This document shows positions 7,038 through 41,200 of a stretch of 64,000 bases of DNA, piece by piece. The notes beneath the pieces are model-generated. The model was given only the letters and a program-made list of their open reading frames with translations. It did not search any database and was not told the DNA's origin. The stretch's first letter is position 1; every line of letters starts with the position of its first letter. Made by a program: the position numbers and the translations under genes. Source of the DNA: Methanomassiliicoccales archaeon LGM-DZ1 (lineage in GTDB: Archaea; Thermoplasmatota; Thermoplasmata; Methanomassiliicoccales; Methanomethylophilaceae); NCBI GenBank assembly GCA_030168595.1, contig CP115556.1:868001-932000 (forward strand), written 5' to 3'.

Positions 7038-7697
7038 ATGCAGCCCATGGATTTCACATCGGGGACCGTTTTCGCGGAGAACGGCCGCCTCTACACCCTC
7101 TCGGCGGCGCCCGGGACCCGCGTTTACGGGGAGAGGACCGTCACGGCGGGCGGGAAGGAGTACCGCGAATGGGACCCGCACCGCAGCAAGCTCGCCGCCT
7201 ACCTGGCGAACGGGGGGAGGGCGTTCCCGTTCCTCCCGGGGTCCTCCGTCCTGTACCTCGGGGCCTCGAGCGGGACCACCCCGTCGCACGTCTCCGACAT
7301 AGCCAGCATGGGGAAGGTCTACTGCGTCGAGTTCGCCCCCAGGATGTTCAGGCAGCTGGTCTCGAACTGCCGGCCGAGGAAGAACATGATCCCGATCCTG
7401 GCCGACGCCACCCGGCCTTCGGAGTACTCTTTCATGGTCTCGCACGCCGACATCGTCTACCAGGACGTGGCGCAGAAGGGGCAGGCCGACATCCTGGCCG
7501 ACAACATGGAGGCGTACGGCGCCGAGCACGGCATGATGGCGGTCAAGGCGAGGTCCGAGGACGTGGCCGAGGAGCCGGCGAGGATCTTCAGGAAGGCCGA
7601 GGAGCGCCTGAGGGAGAGAGGGTTCGAGATCGTAGACGCCAGGCGCCTGGAGCCGTTCGAGGATTCCCACGAGATGATCGCCGTGAGGCGCGCATGA
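7038..7697 (+). CDS. flpA: Fibrillarin-like rRNA/tRNA 2'-O-methyltransferase
   Basis: The 219-residue product is a typical archaeal fibrillarin: an N-terminal beta-rich part (GTVFAENGRLYTLSAAPG), then the SAM-binding loop VLYLGASSGTTPSHVSD, the acidic residue at VYCVEFAPR, and VSHADIVYQDVAQKGQ. It is the catalytic subunit of box C/D RNPs, acting with Nop5 and L7Ae; neither partner is in the window. A T-rich element (about 7003-7011) lies some 30 bases upstream of the ATG. The stop overlaps the start of the Nudix gene (ATGA). Confidence 0.95.
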   Translation: MQPMDFTSGTVFAENGRLYTLSAAPGTRVYGERTVTAGGKEYREWDPHRSKLAAYLANGGRAFPFLPGSSVLYLGASSGTTPSHVSDIASMGKVYCVEFAPRMFRQLVSNCRPRKNMIPILADATRPSEYSFMVSHADIVYQDVAQKGQADILADNMEAYGAEHGMMAVKARSEDVAEEPARIFRKAEERLRERGFEIVDARRLEPFEDSHEMIAVRRA

Positions 7698-8089
7698 CCC
7701 CGGACACCGGCTCGACGGTGTACGCCGTCGCGTTCCGCGGCAGGAGGTTCCTGATGGTCTTCAACGCCCGGAGAGGGGGCTGGGAGATGCCCGGGGGGCA
7801 CATCAAGGAAGGCGAGACCCCGGAGCAGGCCGCCGTCCGCGAGACGCGGGAGGAGTCCGGGTTCGCGATAAAGGTGGTCGCGACGAGGGACCTGGGCCAC
7901 TGCTATGTGTGCGCGGCCGTCGCGGATGCCGGGGCCGCCGACGGGGACTGCGAGATGGAGAGCTCGTTCTTCGGCTCGCTCCCGGAGAAGCTGTCCTTCC
8001 CCAGGGAGGAGTATTTGGACACCGTCCCCTGGGCGGAGCGCGAGCTGGACGCCTGCGGGGCCTCCGATCGGCCTTACAACACACTTTAA
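7694..8089 (+). CDS. Nudix hydrolase
   Basis: A 131-residue single-domain protein. The Nudix box is complete: a glycine in PGGHIKEGE starts it, the spacing to the first glutamate is five residues, and RETREESGF closes it, so it should bind metal and cleave a nucleoside-diphosphate-linked substrate. The substrate is unknown; MutT-like cleaning of damaged nucleotides is one possibility. It overlaps flpA by four bases (ATGA), so it is co-translated with fibrillarin, and it ends just before the promoter of rps15. Confidence 0.9.
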   Translation: MTPDTGSTVYAVAFRGRRFLMVFNARRGGWEMPGGHIKEGETPEQAAVRETREESGFAIKVVATRDLGHCYVCAAVADAGAADGDCEMESSFFGSLPEKLSFPREEYLDTVPWAERELDACGASDRPYNTL

Positions 8090-8095
8090 ATAGGG
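8080..8095 (+). promoter_or_regulatory. Promoter region of the rps15-DHH operon
   Basis: ACACTTTAAATAGGG contains a TATA box overlapping the end of the Nudix gene. The start codon of rps15 is at 8145, so a leader of about 30 bases is expected. Confidence 0.55.
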
Positions 8096-8144
8096 AACAC
8101 CGATAGGGAAGACCTAGCCTCGCCGCCAAGATGAGTGATTCATA

Positions 8145-8600
8145 ATGGCAAGAATGCACGCAAGAAGAAAGGGAAAGGCGTCCTCCAAACGCCCCATGAT
8201 CACCGAGAACCCCGACTGGGTCCCCCTGTCAGCCACCGAGATAGAGGACAAGATCGAGGCATTCGCCAACGAGGGTATGTCCCCCGCTATGATCGGCATG
8301 GTGCTCAGGGACCAGTACGCCGTCCCCAACGTGAAGCTCGCGACCGGTAAGACCGTCACCGAGATCATGGCAGAGAGGAAGGCCAGCGGAGCACTTCCCG
8401 AGGACCTCGCCGCCCTCATGGTCCGCGCGATCAACCTCAACAACCATGTTTCAGCAAACCCGAATGACGTCGCCAACAAGCGCGGACTGACCCTGATCGA
8501 AGCGAAGATCAGGCGCCTGGAGCGCTACTACAAAGAGAACGGCGTCCTTCCCGAGACCTGGAAGTATTCTCTCTCCAACGCTGAACTGATGCTCAAGTGA
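8145..8600 (+). CDS. rps15: 30S ribosomal protein S15
   Basis: A 151-residue archaeal/eukaryotic-type S15 beginning MARMHARRKGKASSKRP, with the archaeal N-terminal extension and the conserved core MIGMVLRDQYAVPNVK and RRLERYYKENG. It binds 16S rRNA in the platform of the small subunit. The GTG start of the following DHH-family gene overlaps its stop; S15 next to an archaeal RecJ-like gene is a known arrangement. Confidence 0.98.
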   Translation: MARMHARRKGKASSKRPMITENPDWVPLSATEIEDKIEAFANEGMSPAMIGMVLRDQYAVPNVKLATGKTVTEIMAERKASGALPEDLAALMVRAINLNNHVSANPNDVANKRGLTLIEAKIRRLERYYKENGVLPETWKYSLSNAELMLK

Positions 8601-9955
8601 GCTTCATGGAAGGTTTCGACCTGCCTTCTAAACTTCTTTCCGCCCTGCGGGCGGCCGCGGACACTGTCCGCGGCCATGATTTTATCCAATGCTACTCGCA
8701 CTTCGATGCCGACGGCATAACCGCCGCCGCCATCATCTCGAAGGCCCTACTCCGCGAAGGGAAGGAGTTCCGCATGACGATCTTCCCGACGCTCAACGAG
8801 GAGCAGATGAAGACGATCGAGGAGACCCCGTCGGAGTGCGTCCTGATAACCGATCTCGGAGCATCCTACATCAAGCGCTTCGATGCCCTGCCCTGCGACG
8901 CGGTGGTCCTGGACCACCACACGGTGAAGGACCAGGCGGAGAAGGCCGTCTACGCCAACCCCCACCTGTACGGGATCGACGGCATGACCTCGGGATGCGG
9001 CGCGACGATGGCGTTCCTTTTCGCTGTCACCCTTGACGAATCCAACTGGGACCTCGCGCCCCTGGCCCTCGCCGGCATGGCAGGGGACAGGCAGCACATC
9101 AACGGCCTCAGCGGGCTGAACGCCTTCGTCCTGAGCGGCGCTGAGCAGAGAGGGCTGGCCGAGGAGAGGCCGGGCTCTCTGATCCCGCCCGGGAAGCTCT
9201 CCGAGTCCCTTTACCTGTCCACCGACCCCTACATCCGCGGAGTGAGCGGCAGCGAGACGGGGACGGCGGCCCTGCTGGCCGATGCGGGGATATCCGGGGA
9301 CAGGTCCCAGGCGGACCTGACCGAGGAGGAGAAGGACAGGCTGTCCAGCCTCATCGCCCTGAAGCTGATCTCCCAGGGGGTCACCCGCGAGAAGCTCGAG
9401 GAGCTGGCCCGCACCAGGTACTGGCTCCCGGGCTGGAGAACCGATGCTGAGTCGCTCTCAGGCGTCCTGAACGCCGCCGGGCGCTCCGGGGAGGCCGGGC
9501 TGGGCGTCGCCGCAGGGATGGGCGATGCCGAGTCCCTGAAGGCCGCCGAGGAGATCGACAGGGCATCCTCCAGGGAACTCCTGGAGGCAGTCCTGGCCGT
9601 CGACAGGGAGGGCCTGGTCCAGATGGAGAACATCCAGTGGTTCGATTCTTCCGTCGTCGGCTTCACCGGGATGGTCTGCGGGACCGCCATGAGCTACTTC
9701 GCCGACCCGTCGAAGCCCACTGTCGGCGTGAACACCTCCGACCCGAAGGCGAACGCCTCCTCGAGAGCGACATTCTCCCTGCTCGATGCAGGCGTCGACC
9801 TCGCCGAGGCCATGTCTGAGGCCGCCAGGGCCGCAGGCGGCGAAGGGGGAGGCCACAAGATCGCTGCAGGCGGTTCGTTCCCGTCCGAAAGGGTGCAGGA
9901 CTTCCTCAGGGCCGCCGACGAGGCCGTCGGCCGGCAGAAGAAGACTAAGAACTGA
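8597..9955 (+). CDS. DHH-family exonuclease (archaeal RecJ-like)
   Basis: The 452-residue protein has the DHH phosphoesterase motifs: SHFDADGITAA (residues ~34-44), an acidic ITDLGASY, and VVLDHHTVKD. A C-terminal DHHA1 part follows with the glycine-rich GGEGGGHKIAAGG that contacts the substrate. Archaeal members work as single-strand exonucleases, often with GINS at the replication fork. The GTG start overlaps the rps15 stop (GTGA); an ATG nine bases later is an alternative. The position behind S15 supports the identification, but nuclease polarity cannot be read from sequence. Confidence 0.9.
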   Translation: MSFMEGFDLPSKLLSALRAAADTVRGHDFIQCYSHFDADGITAAAIISKALLREGKEFRMTIFPTLNEEQMKTIEETPSECVLITDLGASYIKRFDALPCDAVVLDHHTVKDQAEKAVYANPHLYGIDGMTSGCGATMAFLFAVTLDESNWDLAPLALAGMAGDRQHINGLSGLNAFVLSGAEQRGLAEERPGSLIPPGKLSESLYLSTDPYIRGVSGSETGTAALLADAGISGDRSQADLTEEEKDRLSSLIALKLISQGVTREKLEELARTRYWLPGWRTDAESLSGVLNAAGRSGEAGLGVAAGMGDAESLKAAEEIDRASSRELLEAVLAVDREGLVQMENIQWFDSSVVGFTGMVCGTAMSYFADPSKPTVGVNTSDPKANASSRATFSLLDAGVDLAEAMSEAARAAGGEGGGHKIAAGGSFPSERVQDFLRAADEAVGRQKKTKN

Positions 9956-10068: not shown

Positions 10069-11052
10069 TCAGTCGCGCCAGGTAACGGGGACCTCGTCGG
10101 TCCTGAAACGCTGCCTGACCTCGGTATCAGCGATGTCCATCCTGACCCCGGAGCCGTACATCAGGTTCCCCAGCCAGGCGATCATGGCGCCGTTGTCCCT
10201 GCAGAGGTTCCTGTCGGGGACGAACATCCTCCCGCCGCGCTCCTTGGCCATCTCAGAGAGCATATCGCGGAGACGGCCGTTCTGGGCCACCCCGCCGCCC
10301 AGGAGGACCTCTGACTTGCCCACATGGGCCATCGCCCTCTCCGTGACCTCTGTGAGCATCGCGAAGGCGGTCTCCTGGACTGAATAGCAGATGTCCTCGA
10401 TCCTGCAGCCCCTGTCCCTGTAGGACTCGGCGGCTGTCAGTATCCCGGAGAAGGAGATGTCCATCCCCTTGACCGAGTAAGGGAGGTCCAGGAGCCTGTC
10501 GCCGTCCTTGGCCAGCTTCTCGATGGCCGGCCCGGCGTAGAATCCCAGGCCGAGCTCCCTGCCGAGCTTGTCCAGCATGTTCCCGATCCCGACATCCTGG
10601 GTCTCTCCGAAGATGCGGTAGCGGCGGTCCGAATAGGCGATCACCTGGGTGTTGCCTCCCGAGGCATACAGCAGGACCGGGTCGGAGCATCCGGTGGTCG
10701 CATTGCCGATCTCGATATGGGCGATGCAGTGGTTGACGCCGACGATCGGGACCCCGAGGGACAGCGCGAGGGACCTCGCGGCGGTGCCCGCGACGCGCAG
10801 GCAGGGGCCGAGGCCCGGGCCCATGGAGAACGAGACCAGGTCCACGTCGTGAATGGAGATCCCTGCCTCTTCCAGGGCCTTCCCGATGTCTCCGGCGACG
10901 ACCTCGGCATGGTGGTTGGCCGCCTCCCTGGGGTGGAGCCCGCCCTGGGGCGGCCGGTACATGTCGATCACGTTCGACATTATCTTCCCGTCCGAATCGA
11001 CGATGCCCACGCCCAGAGTGTGCGCCGTGCCCTCGATCCCCAGCGTTATCAT
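10069..11052 (-). CDS. kae1: tRNA N6-adenosine threonylcarbamoyltransferase, KEOPS subunit Kae1
   Basis: This 327-residue protein is Kae1/TsaD. Iron-binding histidines are in [14 protein letters not shown] (H108 and H112), with the ASKHA nucleotide-binding motifs [13 protein letters not shown] and [16 protein letters not shown]. It transfers threonylcarbamoyl to A37 of ANN-decoding tRNAs in the KEOPS complex. In many euryarchaea Kae1 is fused to the kinase Bud32; here it is not, and no Bud32 lies nearby. The start at 11052 ([10 protein letters not shown]) matches the family; an upstream start would add 17 unrelated residues. The gene converges on the DHH gene with a 113-base gap in which I see no gene. 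Confidence 0.95.
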
Positions 11053-11145
11053 CGCCCTTCCATGGAAGTCGTGATAATAACCGTTTCCCAAATCTTCCTG
11101 CATATCGGAGGGCCAGAACCTGCCGGTCCGGGACCGGGCATTCGG

Positions 11146-11158
11146 AAAGTATAATTAT
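11146..11158 (+). promoter_or_regulatory. TATA element of tRNA-Val
   Basis: AGTATAATTATAT lies about 30 bases upstream of the mature tRNA 5' end. Confidence 0.6.
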
Positions 11159-11182
11159 ATCCAGTTATTACAGAGGCCTACT

Positions 11183-11258
11183 GGGCTCGTGGTCTAGGGG
11201 TTATGACGTCACATTGACATTGTGAAGGTCGCCAGTTCAAATCTGGCCGGGCCCACCA
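11183..11258 (+). tRNA. tRNA-Val (anticodon GAC)
   Basis: The acceptor stem pairs GGGCTCG with CGGGCCC (one G-T pair). The anticodon stem TCACA/TGTGA encloses TTGACAT, giving GAC. The T-arm contains GTTCAAATC, and CCA is encoded (11256-11258). A T-run at 11277-11283 could end transcription. The 3' end of this gene is repeated at 15736-15754, which suggests it has served as an integration site. Confidence 0.95.
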
Positions 11259-11260
11259 TC
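11242..11260 (+). repeat. Possible attachment site, left copy (3' end of tRNA-Val)
   Basis: The 19 bases covering the T-arm end, acceptor strand and CCA recur in the same direction at 15736-15754 with one mismatch. tRNA 3' ends are common targets of integrases. No integrase gene is left between the copies. Confidence 0.55.
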
Positions 11261-11672
11261 TTAGATGGCCAGCAAGATTTTTTTAGGTCATGTTAAATTT
11301 TAATCCGAAATCTCAGCCGGGTTCCGGCTGATCATCACGGCCGCGTTTCGTTAACGGGGACCTTATTCCATTCAGGCAGCGCCCGCCAACCACATTATCA
11401 GCCCCGTTTTGGTTAAACTTTGCGTAGCTTCCGCTGTGCGACCGCCTTCTGCAGGTGCTGTGCCTCAGCTCTCGTGCGGGCGGGATCTCCGCCGGGCCGC
11501 CATCTTATTCACGCCCATCCGCCCCTCCGGGACGGAGGACCTCACCGCGTATCCGGCTGTCCCTCGGCTTTGCGCCATCTTTTGCTTCGGCCTGCCGCTG
11601 ATGCGGCGGCCAAATGGTGCTCGGCGATTAAGGCCCCGGGATGCCCGCGCTCGGCGCCCGCATATCAGGGGT
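11261..11672. other. Non-coding stretch between tRNA-Val and the IS110 transposase
   Basis: No credible gene is seen in these ~410 bases. The first ~140 bases are AT-richer and probably belong to the old chromosome or island. The rest is GC-rich, with several self-complementary words (for example CCTCCGTCCCGGAGG on the minus strand), and lies directly 3' of the transposase. IS110-group elements use a structured guide (bridge or seek) RNA encoded in a non-coding end, so part of this region may be the right end of the element. I could not fix the boundary. Confidence 0.4.
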
Positions 11673-12794
11673 TCAGTCCGCCGCCGGATCCCCCTCCGCT
11701 TCCTCCGCCATCTCGGCGGAGCGTTCCAGGAGCTCCCTGTCGGTGCTGAAGGGCCTGCGGTTCCTCAGCACCGACCAGACCACGGTCACCAGCTTGCGCG
11801 CGGCCGCCACCTGGGCCTCCCGGTGGGAGACCCCCCTCGCCCTCAGCCTGTTGTAGAGGGCCGAGACCACCGAGTCCTCGGCGGTGCGGACGTGGACGAT
11901 CGCCGACTGGCACAGCAGCCTGCGCATCTCTCTGTCGCCGCGGTGCGTGGTCGCGCACCGGTGCGAGGTCTCCGCCGATTCGCGCACCTTCGGCACCAGG
12001 CCGAAGTACGCCGCCAGCTGGGCCGACGACCCGAAGCGCTTCACGTCGATGATCATAGAGACCGCGTACGCGGCCGAGACCGCGCCGAACCCCGGGATGC
12101 TCATCACCAGGTCGAAGTCGGTGATGTGCCCGAACGTCGCCCGGATCAGCCTGGCCTCCTCGTCGGTGCGGGCCTTTATCGACCTCGCCTCCGACACGAG
12201 GAGCCTCAGGCAGGTGTCCCTCGAGTCCCACATCTCCTTCATCGCCTTCTTCGAGAAGATGTCGGAGTAATCCTTGCTCAGCCTGATCCCGTGGAGGAGC
12301 ATGTGCATCCTGGCCCGGCGCTTGAGGTCCGCCAGGTGCCTCTTCTCCGCGAGGACCGCGCGGCATATCTCGCGCCGCTCCATCCAGACCGGGGACGGCA
12401 TCTTGCAGACGGCGAACTCGCGCTCGCCGTTCAGCCTCCGCCGCATGTACCCCGCGAGCTCGGCCGCATCGTTGGCGTCGGTCTTCTTCACGGACTTGGT
12501 GATCCGGTAGAGGTCCTGGGCCTGCGCCACGACCGTGTCGATCCCGAGGTTGGTCAGGACCCAGTAGGTCTCGTGCGTCTTCGTGGAGTTCTCGATGAGG
12601 ACATGCGCCTCATGCCCGCGGAGCGCCTCCGCGATCCGCGCTATGTCCTCGGGCTCCGACGGCTGCGTGCCGTGGTCCCTGTTGAAGCGCCTCAGGAACT
12701 CCTCCTCGTCTTCGCTCGGCTTCCCCGGGCCCGCATGGACCGCGCAGCATACCGCGGTCTTCTTGTGCAGGTCCATCCCGATCGCTATCCTCAA
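11673..12794 (-). CDS. IS110-family transposase (DEDD recombinase)
   Basis: A 373-residue protein with the two-domain IS110 layout. The RuvC-like N-terminal domain has its acidic residues in IAIGMDLHKKTAV, LIENSTKTHE and KTDANDAAELAG. The C-terminal Tnp_20 domain has the helix-hairpin-helix-like IPGFGAVSAAYAVSMI and the serine-containing RRLLCQSAIVHV. The reading frame appears intact, so the enzyme could be active. The TTG start at 12794 is preferred because IS110 proteins begin just before this IGMDLHKK motif and because GGGAGG lies about ten bases upstream; the frame is open further upstream to 12899. The family moves without terminal inverted repeats, guided by an RNA from the element's end. 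Confidence 0.9.
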   Translation of the reverse strand: MRIAIGMDLHKKTAVCCAVHAGPGKPSEDEEEFLRRFNRDHGTQPSEPEDIARIAEALRGHEAHVLIENSTKTHETYWVLTNLGIDTVVAQAQDLYRITKSVKKTDANDAAELAGYMRRRLNGEREFAVCKMPSPVWMERREICRAVLAEKRHLADLKRRARMHMLLHGIRLSKDYSDIFSKKAMKEMWDSRDTCLRLLVSEARSIKARTDEEARLIRATFGHITDFDLVMSIPGFGAVSAAYAVSMIIDVKRFGSSAQLAAYFGLVPKVRESAETSHRCATTHRGDREMRRLLCQSAIVHVRTAEDSVVSALYNRLRARGVSHREAQVAAARKLVTVVWSVLRNRRPFSTDRELLERSAEMAEEAEGDPAAD

Positions 12795-13148
12795 GCTTTC
12801 CTTGCCTCCCTGCCGCAACCTTCCCCGGAGGCCTGCCGAGGCGCCAATCTTTATCTCAGGTCGGCGATATTCCTCTCGGCCTGCGGTTTTTTGTTGCAAC
12901 TATGAATCAGCAGGTCGCTTTTTGAATGGGGCGGTCTTCTCTACACAGTGGACACCGATACTGCCGCCCTGGACGGAGGAAGGGCTCTGCCCGGAGGCGA
13001 GAGAATGAGGACAGGGCCCGGGAAGCACGGTCGGACCGGCGTGACTGCATTCAGTATAAATATCTCCGAATGCAGTATCGATTTCAGGGAGAAGATGACG
13101 GCTCCGGAAGGAGCCGGACCCTTGAGGCGGGTCAGTCCCGATCATTCC
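12795..13148. other. Non-coding region upstream of the IS110 transposase
   Basis: About 350 bases without a convincing gene. On the minus strand, AGATAAAGATTGG near 12845 could be the transposase TATA box. It also contains a TATA box inside an inverted repeat (13045-13075), a strong hairpin GGCTCC-GGAA-GGAGCC (about 13100-13115) and a second one, CATTCC-TTAC-GGAATG (about 13144-13159). In IS110-subgroup elements the guide RNA comes from the end upstream of the transposase, so this is the other place to look for it. Confidence 0.4.
13045..13075. promoter_or_regulatory. TATA box enclosed by an 8-bp inverted repeat
   Basis: CTGCATTC (13045-13052) and GAATGCAG (13068-13075) are perfect inverted arms around AGTATAAATATCTCC. 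This looks like a repressor operator over a promoter. The controlled transcript is unclear: on the plus strand it would begin near 13083 and read into the two hairpins. Confidence 0.5.
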
Positions 13149-35550: not shown

Positions 35551-37179
35551 TCAGTCGTCCGCTCCGGGAGCGGGGGCTCCCTCGCCGACCTGCGGCGATC
35601 CGGATTTGGAGGCGATGACGTCGTCGATCCTGAGGATCATGACGGCCGCATCGGTGGCCGAGTTGATGGCCTGCTTGCCGATCCTGATGGGCTCGATGAC
35701 GTTGAGCTTCATCATGTCCTCCACCTTGCCGGTGAAGGGGTTGATGCCGGCGAACTTCTTGCCCGCCTTGTGCTGCTTCCTCATCTCGATGACCATGTTG
35801 ATGGGGTCGAGACCGGCGTTCTCAGCGAGGGTGGTCGGGATGATCTCCATGGCGGAGGCGAAGGCCTCGATGGCAATCTGCTCCCTTCCGCCGACAGAGG
35901 CGGCGTAGTCGCGGACGCCCATGGCGATCTCCATGGCCGCGGAGCCTCCTCCGGTGACGATCATGCCGTCTTCCAGGCAGACCTTGACGACGGACCAGGC
36001 GTCCACGAGGGACCTCTCGACCTCATCGGCGACATGCTGGGTCCCTCCCCTGACGAGGACGGAGACGGTCTTGGGGTTCTTGCATCCGTTGATGAAGGTC
36101 ATCTGCTCGTCGCCGACGAACTTCAGCTCGACGGTGTCAGCGTATCCGAGGTCCTCGGCGGTCATCTCGGAGATCTTGCTGATGATGGAGGCGCCGGTGG
36201 ATTTGCCGAGCCTCTCCATGTCGGACTTCTTCACGCGGCGGCAGGCGTAGATTCCTTCCCTGGCGAAGTAGTGCTGGGCGAGGTCGTCGATGCCTTTCTG
36301 GCAGAAGACGACGTTGGCGCCGGCCTTCTTGACGCACTCGACCATGTCCTTGAGGGTCTTCTCCTCTTCGGCGATGAACTGGTTGAGCATAGCGGGGTCG
36401 GTGATCTGGATCTTGGCGTCCACTTCGGGCTTCCTGACCTCGAAGGCGACGTTGACCAGGGCGATCTTGGCGTTCTTCACGAGGTGGGGCATGGTCGGGT
36501 TGACAGGCTCCTTGTCGACGATGAGGCCTTTCACGAGCTCGGACTCCTCCATGTTGGCGCCGGCCTTCTTGACGGTCTGGATGTTCTTGAGGTCGATCTG
36601 CATCTTGCCCTCGGGGTCCTTGTCCATGATGGTCTTGACGGCGTCGACGACCATGTCGGAGAAGAACTCTTTCGAGCCGCTGACCTGCTTGGAGATCATC
36701 GCGGTCTGGGCGATGAGCTTCAGGGTCTTGTCGTCCTTGGGGTCCACCTTGGTGGCGATGGATTTGAGGATCTCCTGGGCCTTCTCGTTGGCCATCCTGT
36801 AACCGGCGGTGATGATGGTCGGGTGGACGTTGGAGTCGATCAGGTCGAGGGCCTTCTTCAGGAGCTCTCCCGCGATGATGACGGAGGTGGTGGTACCGTC
36901 GCCGACTTCCTGGTCCTGGGTCTTGGCGACCTCGACGAGCATCTTGGCGGCAGGGTGCTGGACATCCATCTCTTTGAGGATGGTCACACCGTCGTTGGTG
37001 ATGACGACGTCTCCGACGGAGTCGACAAGCATCTTGTCCATTCCGCGGGGCCCGAGGCTGGACCTGACAGCGTCCGAGATGGTCCTCGCAGCGGTGATGT
37101 TGTTGAACTGAGCGTCTTTTCCTTTGTCCCTCTTGGTGCCTTCCCTGAGGATAAGCACGGGTGCGTTGCCCATACCCAT
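35551..37179 (-). CDS. Thermosome subunit (group II chaperonin)
   Basis: 542 residues, a full-length archaeal Cpn60/CCT-type subunit. ATP-binding motifs are SSLGPRGMDKMLVD, ITNDGVTILKEMDVQHPAAK and GDGTTTSVIIAGELL; a C-terminal GGGSAAMEIAM motif follows. It folds proteins in a double ring closed by a built-in lid. Only one subunit gene is in the window. It heads the cluster thermosome-grpE-dnaK-dnaJ, all in one direction. Its TATA box is enclosed by an inverted repeat (37232-37255). Confidence 0.98.
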   Translation of the reverse strand: MGMGNAPVLILREGTKRDKGKDAQFNNITAARTISDAVRSSLGPRGMDKMLVDSVGDVVITNDGVTILKEMDVQHPAAKMLVEVAKTQDQEVGDGTTTSVIIAGELLKKALDLIDSNVHPTIITAGYRMANEKAQEILKSIATKVDPKDDKTLKLIAQTAMISKQVSGSKEFFSDMVVDAVKTIMDKDPEGKMQIDLKNIQTVKKAGANMEESELVKGLIVDKEPVNPTMPHLVKNAKIALVNVAFEVRKPEVDAKIQITDPAMLNQFIAEEEKTLKDMVECVKKAGANVVFCQKGIDDLAQHYFAREGIYACRRVKKSDMERLGKSTGASIISKISEMTAEDLGYADTVELKFVGDEQMTFINGCKNPKTVSVLVRGGTQHVADEVERSLVDAWSVVKVCLEDGMIVTGGGSAAMEIAMGVRDYAASVGGREQIAIEAFASAMEIIPTTLAENAGLDPINMVIEMRKQHKAGKKFAGINPFTGKVEDMMKLNVIEPIRIGKQAINSATDAAVMILRIDDVIASKSGSPQVGEGAPAPGADD

Positions 37180-37231
37180 TTTTACATTCTCCTTTAGCCC
37201 GAAGACTCTCTTCGGGAACTATGCCTTGATT

Positions 37232-37255
37232 GAATGTTCTTCTATATAAACATTC
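37232..37255 (-). promoter_or_regulatory. Thermosome promoter: TATA box inside a 7-bp inverted repeat
   Basis: GAATGTT (37232-37238) and AACATTC (37249-37255) flank the TATA element (TTTATATAG on the minus strand). The predicted start of transcription leaves a ~40-base leader. A heat-shock repressor binding here would cover the TATA box. Confidence 0.6.
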
Positions 37256-37506
37256 TTTTGGTAGACAACCTTAGGTTAATGACCAATTGGACGTGTCTTT
37301 TTCGTTATCTGGATTATCCGAAAATATCCCGATTTCTTCCTTTATTTTACACATTCCTGAAAGTATCATTTTTAAAATTAAATTATCCCTTTAAGGATTA
37401 GTGCCGGAGGCCTTTCCGGAAGCGCGGAGAGACCTGATGCACAGAAATGCTGACCCGAACATGTTCGCAAACCTGTTTAGTTACAAATTCGCGGCTTCAA
37501 AAGTGC
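37256..37506. other. AT-rich intergenic region with a leader hairpin for the SMR genes
   Basis: Divergent promoters lie here. For the SMR side, TTTTTAAAATTAAATTATCC (about 37370-37390) can act as TATA, giving a leader of about 100 bases that contains a CCGGA-GGCCTT-TCCGG hairpin (37404-37419) enclosed by GTGC...GCAC. It does not match a guanidine riboswitch that I can recognise. Confidence 0.35.
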
Positions 37507-37863
37507 ATGAGCGAATTGATAGCTTGGGCGGTTCTGCTCGCGGCAAGCTGCATAGAGCCCATATGGCCTACATGCCTTGACAAGTCTGACGGATTCAAGA
37601 AGAAAGGGTGGGGGATCGCGGCGATAGTCCTGGTCCTCTTATGTTTATATTTACTAGCATACGCGGTGGGGATGGAGGATTCTTCGGGAGATGCGTACAT
37701 CGGCCCCGGAGTCGCGTATTCGGTCCTGGCAGGGATCGGGGCGGCAGGCGTGGTCGCCATCGGCCGCGTGCTCTACAAGGAGAAGCTGACCGCCAGGAGG
37801 ATCTTCTTCGTGGCCCTCATCGTGATCGGGATCATCGGCACCAGGCTGGCAGGTGAAATCTGA
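37507..37863 (+). CDS. Small multidrug resistance (SMR) family subunit, first of a pair
   Basis: 118 residues and four hydrophobic helices. Helix 1 keeps the essential glutamate in AASCIEPIWPTCLDKSDGF. SMR proteins are proton-coupled exporters of cationic drugs, polyamines or guanidinium and work as dimers, often of two different subunits. The ATG at 37507 (MSELIAWAVLL) is chosen; an upstream in-frame ATG would add 20 unrelated residues. The TGA overlaps the ATG of the partner gene. Confidence 0.85.
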   Translation: MSELIAWAVLLAASCIEPIWPTCLDKSDGFKKKGWGIAAIVLVLLCLYLLAYAVGMEDSSGDAYIGPGVAYSVLAGIGAAGVVAIGRVLYKEKLTARRIFFVALIVIGIIGTRLAGEI

Positions 37864-38240
37864 TGGCATCGGTCGGCATTAACGAGAAGATGCTGGCATG
37901 GATCGTCCTCCTCCTGGGAGGGATATTCCAGATAGGATGGTCCATCGGCGTCGATTACACCGAGAAGTTCACCGTGTGGACCTGGGACATCGTCACCGTG
38001 GTCTTCCTGGCGCTCAGCATGGTCTGCCTCGAGTGGCCGATGAAGCACGGCATAGCGTTCACCACCGCCTATGCGGTATGGATCGGGGTCGGGGTCGGCC
38101 TGACCGTCATCGTGTCCGCGGTACTGGGACTCGATGACTTCAACTGGCTCATGGGCGTCTTCCTGGTGGTCGTCCTTGCGGGAGTGGTCGGGCTGAAGGC
38201 CACCCCGGTGGAATACATCGAAGAGCCAGAGAAACCCTGA
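37863..38240 (+). CDS. SMR family subunit, second of a pair, with Glu replaced by Gln in helix 1
   Basis: 125 residues aligning well with SugE/Gdx-type SMR proteins (helix 1 AWIVLLLGGIFQIGWSIGVD, then YTEKFT; helix 3 FTTAYAVWIGVGVG). At the position of the invariant glutamate (E13/14 in Gdx/EmrE, the proton and substrate site) there is glutamine (GIFQIGW). It is coupled to the first subunit by a TGATG overlap, so an E/Q heterodimer is likely. A C-terminal ~10-residue acidic tail (VEYIEEPEKP) is additional. Confidence 0.88.
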   Translation: MASVGINEKMLAWIVLLLGGIFQIGWSIGVDYTEKFTVWTWDIVTVVFLALSMVCLEWPMKHGIAFTTAYAVWIGVGVGLTVIVSAVLGLDDFNWLMGVFLVVVLAGVVGLKATPVEYIEEPEKP

Positions 38241-38254
38241 AACAGGGGAGACAG

Positions 38255-38270
38255 GCCGGGCTTCCGGCCG
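38255..38270. terminator. Hairpin between the convergent SMR and gltB genes
   Basis: GGCCGG-GCTT-CCGGCC is a perfect 6-bp stem in the 38-base gap between two convergent genes. Confidence 0.5.
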
Positions 38271-38278
38271 TCCCCCCA

Positions 38279-41200
38279 TCAGTTGCTCTCGTCTTTCAGG
38301 AGCATCTTGTAACCGACGGGGATGACCTTCAGGAACCTGCGGCAGGCCGCCGGCCAATCGGCCAGGAGGGACTTCGCCAGCGCGCTCCCGGTGTACTTGA
38401 CGTGGTTCTCGAGGATCCCTCTCAGCTCGGCGCAGTCCTTCGGGACGTCCAGCGCCTCGAGCTCGACCATGTCCATGTTGCAGTGGCGGTCGAAATCGCC
38501 GTCATCGTTGAGGACATAGGCTATTCCCGCGGACATACCGGCGGCGAAGTTCCTGCCGCAGTGCCCGAGGACGACGACGCGCCCTCCGGTCATGTACTCG
38601 CAGCAATGGTCCCCGACGCCCTCGGCGACGGCTATCGCGCCGCTGTTGCGGACGCAGAACCTCTCTCCCGCGGATCCCGCGACATAGAGCTCACCGGCGG
38701 TGGCCCCGTACATGGCGGTGTTCCCGGCCAGCACTCCTGGGTCTTCGCATCCGGACCTGAAGACGGCGATCCTGCCGCCCGACAGCCCCTTTCCGATGTA
38801 ATCGTTGGCCATCCCGTCGAGCTCCAGGGTTATGCCCTCGGTCAGGAAGGCTCCGAAGCTCTGCCCGGCCGTCCCTTTGAAGAACAGCCTGACCGAGCCG
38901 TCGGACGGACGGAGGCCCAGCCTCTTGATCTCGCCCGAGAGCATCGCCCCGACCGAGCGGTCGGTGTTCCTGACCGCGTAGGATAGGGAGACCGTCCCGC
39001 CCCTGCGGATCTCGGGCATGGCATCGGACATGATCACGCGGTCGATCTGCTCCGACAGCATGTCGGGCTGGCCGGGGCCGAGTTCCCTCTCGCCCTTCTC
39101 CATATGCAGGAGCGGGGAAAGGTCCAGGGAGGAGGCGGGGCCTTCGACGCTGCGCAGACCCAGCAGGTCCGCGCGGCCGATGATCTCGGACAGCGAGCGG
39201 AATCCCATGGCGGCGATGCGGCGCCTGACGTCCTCCGCGATGTCCGTGAGGTAGCGGGCGACGCCCTGCGGCGTCCCCTTGAACTTCTTCCTCAGCACCG
39301 GGTCCTGGGTGGCGATGCCTGCGGGGCACTTGTTGGTCTGGCACTTGCGGCACATGACACATCCCATGGACACGAGGACGGACGTCGCGAAGCCGTACTC
39401 CTCGGCGCCCAGCAGGGCGGCGACCACGACGTCGCGCCCGGTCCTGAGCTGCCCGTCGACCTGCAGCCTGACGCGGCCGCGGAGGCCGTTGGCCATGAGG
39501 GTCTGCTGAGCTTCGGCGAGACCGACCTCCCAGGGCATCCCCGCGTAGCGCATGGACGACATGGGGGCGGCTCCGGTCCCTCCGTCGCCGCCTGAGATGA
39601 GGATGATGTCCGCCCCGGCCTTGGCAACGCCGGAGGCGACGGTGCCCACGCCAGCCTCGGAGACGAGCTTGACGCTGATCTTCGCGGACGGGTTCACGCA
39701 CCTGAGGTCGAGGATGAGCTGCTTCAGGTCCTCGATCGAATAGATATCGTGGTGCGGCGGAGGGGAGATCAGGGTAACGCCCGGCAGGGTGTGGCGGGTG
39801 GCCGCGATGACGGAGTCCACCTTGAACCCCATGAGCTGCCCGCCCTCTCCGGGCTTGGCGCCCTGGGCGCACTTGATCTGGATCTCCTCGGCCGATGCCA
39901 GGTACTCCGTGTCGACGCCGAAGCGCCCGGACGCCACCTGGCGGACCTTGGATGCCTTGGCGGCGGGGCGGGAGGGGTCCTCCCCTCCTTCTCCGCAGTT
40001 GCTGCGGGCCCCCAGCATGTTGGCGGCCTCGGCGGCCGTCTCGTGGGCCTCCTTGCTGATGGCGCCGAAGGACATCGCTTCCACGACGAACCTGCTGAGG
40101 ATGGACCCGGCAGGCTCGACCTCGGAGATGTCTGCAGGCCTGCCGGCTGCCGGCTCGAGCAGGTCGCGGAGGTAGAACAGGCCGTCGCCCAGGTCCGCAT
40201 GCTCGGCGAACCTGTCGTAGGCGCTGCCGTCGGCGTCGGAGGCCGCGGCATGGAGGAGCCTGACGGCCTCGACGGACCAGGCATGCCTCTCCCCTCCCCT
40301 GACCGGGGTGTAGACCCCGGTCTGGGGGAGGCCGTCCGGCAGCTCGGAGGCGAACGCCTCGGCGTGGCGGGCGAGGACGGTCTCGGCTATCTCCTTCAGC
40401 CCGATGCCGCCGACGCAGGACCTGGTGCCGCAGAGGTACTTGTTGCAGAGCCCGCGGTCGAGGCCGACGGCCTCGAACAGGCAGGTCCCGCGGTACGAGC
40501 GGATGGTGCTTATGCCCATCTTGGACATGATCTTCTTGAGGCCGTTCTCGAGCGCGCGGGCGTAGCGGTACTCCGCCGTGTCCGGGTCGTAGCCGGTCCT
40601 CCCGGCCAGGGAGAGGGACTCGACCTCGCAGTATGCCAGGTACGGGTTGACGAGGTTCGCGCCGTACGCGAACAGCAGGGCGACGTGCTCGGTCTCCCTG
40701 ACCTCGCCGGTCTCGACGATTATGCCGGTCTCGACCCTCCTCTTCTTCTCGAGGAGGCGCTGGTGGACGGCAGCGGTGGCCAGCAGCGACGGGACCGCCG
40801 CATGGGCGGCGTCCACGCCGCGGTCCGACAGGATGATGTATGATATCCCGTCCGAAACGGCCTCCTCGGCCTGGGCGCATATCCTCTCGAGGGCCTTCTC
40901 GAGGCCGGCGGGGCCGTCCGATACCGGGAACACGATCTGGATGGTCGAAGTGGAGAATCCGCGGTAACGGAGGTTCCTCAGCAGGTCGATCTCCCTGTCG
41001 GTGATGATCGGGTGGCGGACCTTCACGATGCGGCAGTTCTCCGGCGCCGGGACGAGCAGGTCGTGGTGGATCGACCCGATGTAGCCGGTGACCGACATGA
41101 CGAGCTCCTCGCGGATGGGGTCTATCGCGGGGTTGGTGACCTGCGCGAAGGACTGCCTGAAGTAATTGAAGAAGCTCTGCGGCATCGAGGACAGCACAGG

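Follow-up and report, generated by a model that had tools for sequence, protein, structure and literature searches.

An SMR gene pair of Methanomethylophilaceae with glutamine in place of the central glutamate in one subunit

Two adjacent genes in the genome of Methanomassiliicoccales archaeon LGM-DZ1 encode a pair of SMR proteins in which the central glutamate of helix 1 is present in one subunit (A) and replaced by glutamine in the other (B). This one-Glu anatomy was shown by alignment with orthologs and with Gdx-Clo. From the gene neighborhoods in related genomes and from published work on SMR proteins we infer that the pump may move methylamines or ammonium with an unusual coupling.

The two genes, their fold and their predicted topology

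The window, which is the whole stretch of 64,000 nucleotides that was analyzed, is part of a single-contig genome of 1.77 Mb. The genes for subunit A (118 amino acids; 37507..37863) and subunit B (125 amino acids; 37863..38240) are both located on the forward strand and overlap in the sequence ATGA. The longer open reading frame of A in the window begins at 37447; an error in the assigned start was ruled out, since the alignment showed that position 37507 is the start common to the orthologs. The B protein is 98% identical in the close relative 'Candidatus Methanomethylophilus' sp. 1R26. A second SMR pair in the window's genome, at 662441-663059, has glutamate in both subunits.

Both subunits scored above the PF00893 cut-off of 23.7 bits (62.1 bits for A and 51.5 bits for B). 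The AlphaFold monomer model of B (pLDDT 79.5) displayed helices at residues 8-32, 39-61, 66-88 and 95-113, and its best match in the PDB (Foldseek rank 1) was Gdx-Clo, 6wk5, with TM-scores of 0.71/0.84. Four helices were also seen in the monomer model of A, although this model is poor (pLDDT 62). The Tyr switch (Y59 in Gdx) is present in both subunits, as Y71 in A and Y70 in B, and is invariant in the 18-row alignments. The sequence-only reading had aligned B with SugE/Gdx through its whole length. This holds for the entire membrane part of Gdx-Clo, but SugE membership is a matter of resemblance, with scores of 52.4 and 58.7 bits against a cut-off of 126 for the NCBIfam model NF008512. The SMR trait of a central helix-1 glutamate in both subunits is absent, with glutamate in A and glutamine in B. 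We conclude that the pair is an SMR by descent and fold, minus a residue that is called invariant in a 2022 paper on EmrE (PMC9000954).

The lysine and arginine bias is -5 in subunit A, for which an N-out orientation is predicted, and +3 in subunit B, predicted to be N-in. With duplicates counted, values of -2 to -5 were obtained for 56 of 58 rows of A, and values of +2 to +6 for 52 of 55 rows of Gln-type B. The five outlying rows comprised one at zero, one at +31 and three at +24 or +30; the last four are run-on open reading frames as far as examined. By the positive-inside rule, this opposite bias predicts a fixed antiparallel topology. The pattern agrees with the opposite bias reported for adjacent bacterial SMR genes in a 2022 review, the survey of which did not extend to archaea (PMC9574504). 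L083/L156 displayed the reversed gene order, with the Gln subunit before the Glu subunit. In L038:2983-3987 and L116:9025-10029, the open reading frame of B reads through without a stop to 335 amino acids, which represents a fusion or else the loss of a stop codon. The run-on stretch is presumably UspA-like.

Conservation of the glutamine and changes in the partner subunit

The replacement of glutamate by glutamine in B, claimed from the sequence alone, was confirmed: the motif GIFQIGW aligns with GIFEVVW of Gdx-Clo (6wk5), and Gln23 (codon CAG, 37929..37931, forward strand) corresponds to E13. A scan of genome contigs from 84,980 species identified 17 loci, each with an A gene encoding the glutamate followed by a B gene encoding the glutamine. 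We also searched a profile of B over 147 genomes of the order (E<=1e-25), which gave 42 places in 41 genomes, all of which were read. Glutamine was found at 36 of these places, in 35 of the 147 genomes, and every such case belongs to the family Methanomethylophilaceae. The other six (L087-L092) have glutamate and are outgroup places that contain the closest Glu-bearing relatives of B. A strain-level mutation or a sequencing error is thus excluded by the glutamine in all 17 scan loci and in most places of the order. Glutamate in orthologs, which the sequence-only reading had named as its refutation, was not seen in the true orthologs. No Gln-type pair was found outside the family among 389 genomes from the phylum, as judged by E-value; the matches beyond the order (G450 and G175) reached only about 1e-19, which is within the range of ordinary SMRs.

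The residue at Gdx position 13 is glutamate in 79 and aspartate in one of the 80 other SMR sequences of the set, and glutamine in each of the 35 distinct B-type sequences used for the tree. Among 36 distinct sequences, the glutamine codon was CAG in 34 and CAA in two. The finite pairwise omega values (Nei-Gojobori) ranged from 0.05 to 0.17 in B and from 0.02 to 0.10 in A; they are rough estimates since dS was high and partly saturated, with one of 18 values infinite. Both A and B are under purifying selection, and a pseudogene was excluded on the basis of omega and conservation.

It had also been claimed that the partner keeps its glutamate. Glu17 of A (codon GAG, 37555..37557, forward strand) indeed occupies Gdx E13 in all 18 aligned A proteins and all 36 distinct A-type sequences, but A is not an ordinary Glu subunit. 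At Gdx positions 13/16/42/59/62, A reads E/W/C/Y/L and B reads Q/W/S/Y/W. Cys46 of A (codon TGT, 37642..37644, forward strand) replaces S42 and Leu74 (codon CTG, 37726..37728, forward strand) replaces W62. Both replacements were found in all 36 distinct A-type sequences; tryptophan occupies position 62 in all 80 canonical sequences, and position 42 is serine in 75 of them, aspartate in five and cysteine in none. Subunit B retains S42 and W62 in 35 of 35 sequences of the tree set, as well as W16 and Y59 in the states that were read. In each Gln locus read, including the reversed locus L083, the Gln-type B was paired with a Cys/Leu-type A. In Gdx-Clo, the residues W16, S42 and W62 keep E13 of their own subunit in place, with Y59 extending across (PMC7695847). 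The stack of W16, E13, S42 and W62 within each subunit, which is a Gdx/SugE trait, is incomplete in both A and B: without S42 and W62 in A and without E13 in B, each half has lost what the other retains. The substitutions S42A and W62F abolish the currents of Gdx-Clo, whereas the equivalent changes in EmrE are tolerated with some substrates (PMC9000954).

Other variants of these positions were observed in the set. The five canonical sequences with aspartate at position 42 are A-type subunits (L087-L090 and L100), in which it constitutes an extra acid beside the central glutamate. A pair of G034, which is of the window's genus (L098 and L129), has a second subunit on a very long branch with aspartate for the central glutamate and glycine for Trp16. 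In SMR pairs of L107:17127-17823, L134 and L137, both subunits have glycine at position 42, and one has tyrosine for Trp16.

A maximum-likelihood tree was inferred with a 'quick' method from 152 rows and 99 columns, leaving out the trait columns 13, 42, 47 and 62 and the partial sequence L093; it was drawn with a midpoint root and has many open forks. The tree largely separates the A from the B lineages, and the five residue classes require four changes, the minimum possible. The Cys/Leu-type A subunits form one clade (SH-aLRT 99). All Gln-type B subunits likewise form one clade (91), the sister of which is the Glu-bearing B of L091 and L092, joined at 97. These two loci combine a Cys/Leu-type A with a Glu-type B and are surviving intermediates. 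Glu57 of B (codon GAG, 38031..38033, forward strand) lies in helix 2 and corresponds to Gdx position 47, which adjoins the site of L47 in EmrE; glutamate at this position marks a single nested clade (95), to which 24 of the tree set's 35 distinct Gln-type sequences belong. According to the tree, A lost serine and tryptophan before B lost glutamate, and B gained the helix-2 glutamate last. The initial idea of a heterodimer with one protonatable site is supported by the charge bias, the strict pairing and the conserved glutamine; it applies to the central position only, since B has gained E57.

Gene neighborhood

Methylamine genes were sought in 61 stretches with profiles of mttB, mtbB, mtmB, their corrinoid proteins, RamA and the putative permease mttP, and the family assignments were confirmed with Pfam and NCBIfam on representatives. 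The designation mttP was assigned by position and an EamA match, with the name taken from the literature (PMC5688252). A methylamine gene was located within 10 kb of 17 of the 29 Gln pairs and within 1 kb of 16; 14 pairs had mttB, mtbB or mttP as a neighbor. The 12 pairs without methylamine neighbors include four whose contigs measure 5-7 kb. Of the canonical Glu/Glu pairs, 13 of 27 had a methylamine gene nearby, for the most part mtmB, RamA or a corrinoid gene, as compared to none of the five Asp42 pairs and neither of the two pairs of Cys/Leu-type A with Glu-type B. A methylamine link specific to the Gln type was dropped because of the 13 canonical pairs, and the shared context speaks for the paralog family rather than for the glutamine itself.

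The layouts varied, with mttP, a small gene and the pair in L104, a pair adjoining a corrinoid gene and mtmB in L114 and L118, and a pair adjoining a corrinoid gene in L119, which rules out a single frozen block. In six single-contig genomes, four Gln pairs were located within 5 kb of a corrinoid protein gene (PF02607). Random independent placement gives P of about 9e-6 for this proximity, a value that is too small, since the six genomes were a sample of convenience and share ancestry. No methylamine gene occurs within 10 kb of the window's own pair, and the nearest PF02607 gene is 85 kb away. We take the pair to stand between a thermosome gene and glutamate synthase; the pairs of L115 and L117 likewise adjoin the thermosome, but many related genomes have the pair at another site.

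SMR pairs in general, beyond the Gln type, seem to be tied to methylamine use in Methanomethylophilaceae. Glu/Glu pairs directly adjoin RamA, mtmB or corrinoid genes in L123, L131, L146 and L128. Genes for cobaltochelatase or Mg-chelatase-like ATPases (best NCBIfam match TIGR02442) were observed near the Gln pair in 10 of 21 stretches (L104:10060-13010 and nine similar loci). In L119, hydantoinase/oxoprolinase-family proteins (7086-9083 and 10980-13013, with Pfam run on the second only) flank the pair beside the corrinoid genes. They are possibly corrinoid activators or encoded by genes for another methylated substrate.

Coupling, substrate and alternative explanations

We give somewhat less than an even chance to the reading that A and B form an obligate Glu/Gln heterodimer with a divided site, which moves a small amine cation by 1:1 exchange or uniport. 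Judging from the pairing and the charge bias, the subunits would assemble as an obligate antiparallel SMR heterodimer. The sole central carboxylate is that of subunit A (predicted N-out), and B (predicted N-in) has glutamine at the center yet retains Trp16, Ser42 and Trp62, two of which are gone from A; both keep the Tyr switch. A single central carboxylate would hold one cation, amine or proton, at a time, and the dimer would therefore be expected to swap cation for cation in an electroneutral 1:1 exchange, or to act as a uniporter, rather than to export one cation per two protons. The recurrent mttB/mtbB/mttP clusters in related genomes suggest a small amine cation of methylamine methanogenesis as the cargo, with tri- or dimethylammonium moving in, or monomethylammonium, ammonium or protons moving out. 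The window's pair lies elsewhere, and its role is thus carried over from orthologs in related genomes.

By analogy, an altered coupling would follow from published SMR work. The central glutamate is described as conserved and essential, with two protons per cation in Gdx (PMC9574504), and EmrE with E14Q is reported to be nonfunctional (PMC9741644). Co-expressed Glu/Gln dimers of EmrE gave E. coli no protection against drugs (PMC6805155), which makes the ordinary two-proton exporter mode unlikely for A/B, and the glutamine in such dimers favors one conformer (PMC12464994, PMC11133458). No indication was found of the channel-like mode that had been proposed. Guanidinium, polyamines and quaternary amines had been suggested for transport assays; the gene context in related genomes points instead to methylamines or ammonium. 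The use of monomethylamine yields ammonium within the cell. Ammonium transporters near methylamine genes have been suggested to export ammonium (PMC4153887), and a carrier for methylammonium and ammonium would fit both. Counted against the methylamine reading are the window's own pair and the 12 of 29 Gln loci without such neighbors, and the putative permease (mttP) that the clusters already contain.

The acid may instead have been relocated, with E57 of helix 2 replacing E13, so that the dimer is still an exporter of one cation per two protons through a rearranged site. We consider this unlikely. E57 might supply a second proton site, against the one-site reading; its clade includes all close orthologs of the window's pair, and the adjacent L47 of EmrE lines the pocket (PMC9000954). 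However, 11 of the 35 Gln-type sequences have serine at this position, the glutamine precedes E57 on the tree, so the pair persisted without it, and acids conserved across the Gln clade were found by a scan only at positions 32 and 80, near the helix ends. We likewise doubt that the pair is a weakly coupled or specialized exporter of toxic cations such as guanidinium or quaternary amines, with the methylamine clusters being the result of hitch-hiking. The absence of resistance from Glu/Gln EmrE dimers (PMC6805155) argues against such an exporter, as do the cysteine and leucine of A at the two positions where the substitutions S42A and W62F eliminate the currents of Gdx-Clo, even though EmrE with equivalent changes still accepts some substrates. 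Moreover, no Rfam match at E<=1, and hence no guanidine riboswitch, was found in positions 36800-38600. In its favor, SugE/Gdx is the best curated resemblance and Gdx-Clo the best fold match, and 'quaternary ammonium compound efflux pumps' are listed for this order (PMC4153887).

Lipid SMRs often have asparagine for the glutamate (PMC9574504), which would fit a flippase or facilitator for neutral cargo, similar to ArnE/ArnF, in which the charged residue is dispensable. This is highly improbable in view of the glutamate retained by A in 36 of 36 distinct sequences, and no lipid or glycan gene recurs among the identified neighbors. Equally hard to defend is a decaying or purely structural B subunit with no catalytic part. 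B lacks the essential glutamate, but it is under purifying selection, has S42 and W62 in 35 of 35 sequences and keeps W16 and Y59 in the residue states that were examined, and A, which itself lacks S42 and W62, is never found without B.

EbrAB and YkkCD have two glutamates each. The A/B pair resembles these systems and MdtIJ in its adjacent genes, opposite charge bias and expected heterodimer (PMC2716321, PMC9574504), but the central glutamates of MdtIJ are reported to be critical (PMC9574504), whereas A/B has one glutamine and a broken stack in the other subunit. The guanidinium exporters Gdx-Clo and SugE (SMR_Gdx) share the four-helix fold, Trp16 and Tyr59 with the pair, and B has the Ser42/Trp62 half of the stack; unlike them, A/B has the central glutamate in one subunit only and Cys42/Leu62 in A, is always paired and scores below the SugE cut-off. 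The engineered dimer EmrE:EmrE-E14Q (PMC11133458, PMC12464994, PMC6805155; PDB 8uoz) also combines one central glutamate with one glutamine in an antiparallel arrangement, but is a laboratory construct, whereas A/B is natural, conserved and further changed in both subunits. Asparagine-bearing lipid SMRs are the known natural exception to the central glutamate (PMC9574504); ArnE/ArnF thus also have a natural amide at this position, with asparagine and a non-cationic cargo as compared to glutamine in one subunit and glutamate retained in the other. A two-site machine with one site stably degenerate is also represented by the heterodimeric ABC exporters in which one nucleotide site is degenerate (PMC7756269), but only as an analogy, since fold and energy source are unrelated. 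A literature search that covered few subscription papers and no supplements gave no account of a natural SMR heterodimer with a single central glutamate, nor of methylamine clusters that contain SMR genes.

It is conceivable, though rather doubtful, that a branch of SMR proteins turned from proton-driven exporters into carriers for growth substrates in methylotrophic methanogens. The Glu/Gln dimer would then mediate methylammonium uptake driven by the membrane potential, or a 1:1 swap against ammonium or protons, having arisen through stepwise complementary loss. The one-Glu pair retained across much of a methanogen family provides a natural test of the purpose of the second glutamate, with respect to stoichiometry, leak and direction. 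The living series comprises Glu/Glu pairs, Cys/Leu-type A with Glu-type B, Glu/Gln pairs, and Glu/Gln pairs with an additional helix-2 glutamate. If the methylamine link is true, the pair would also point to a transporter for substrates of methane production in the rumen and gut.
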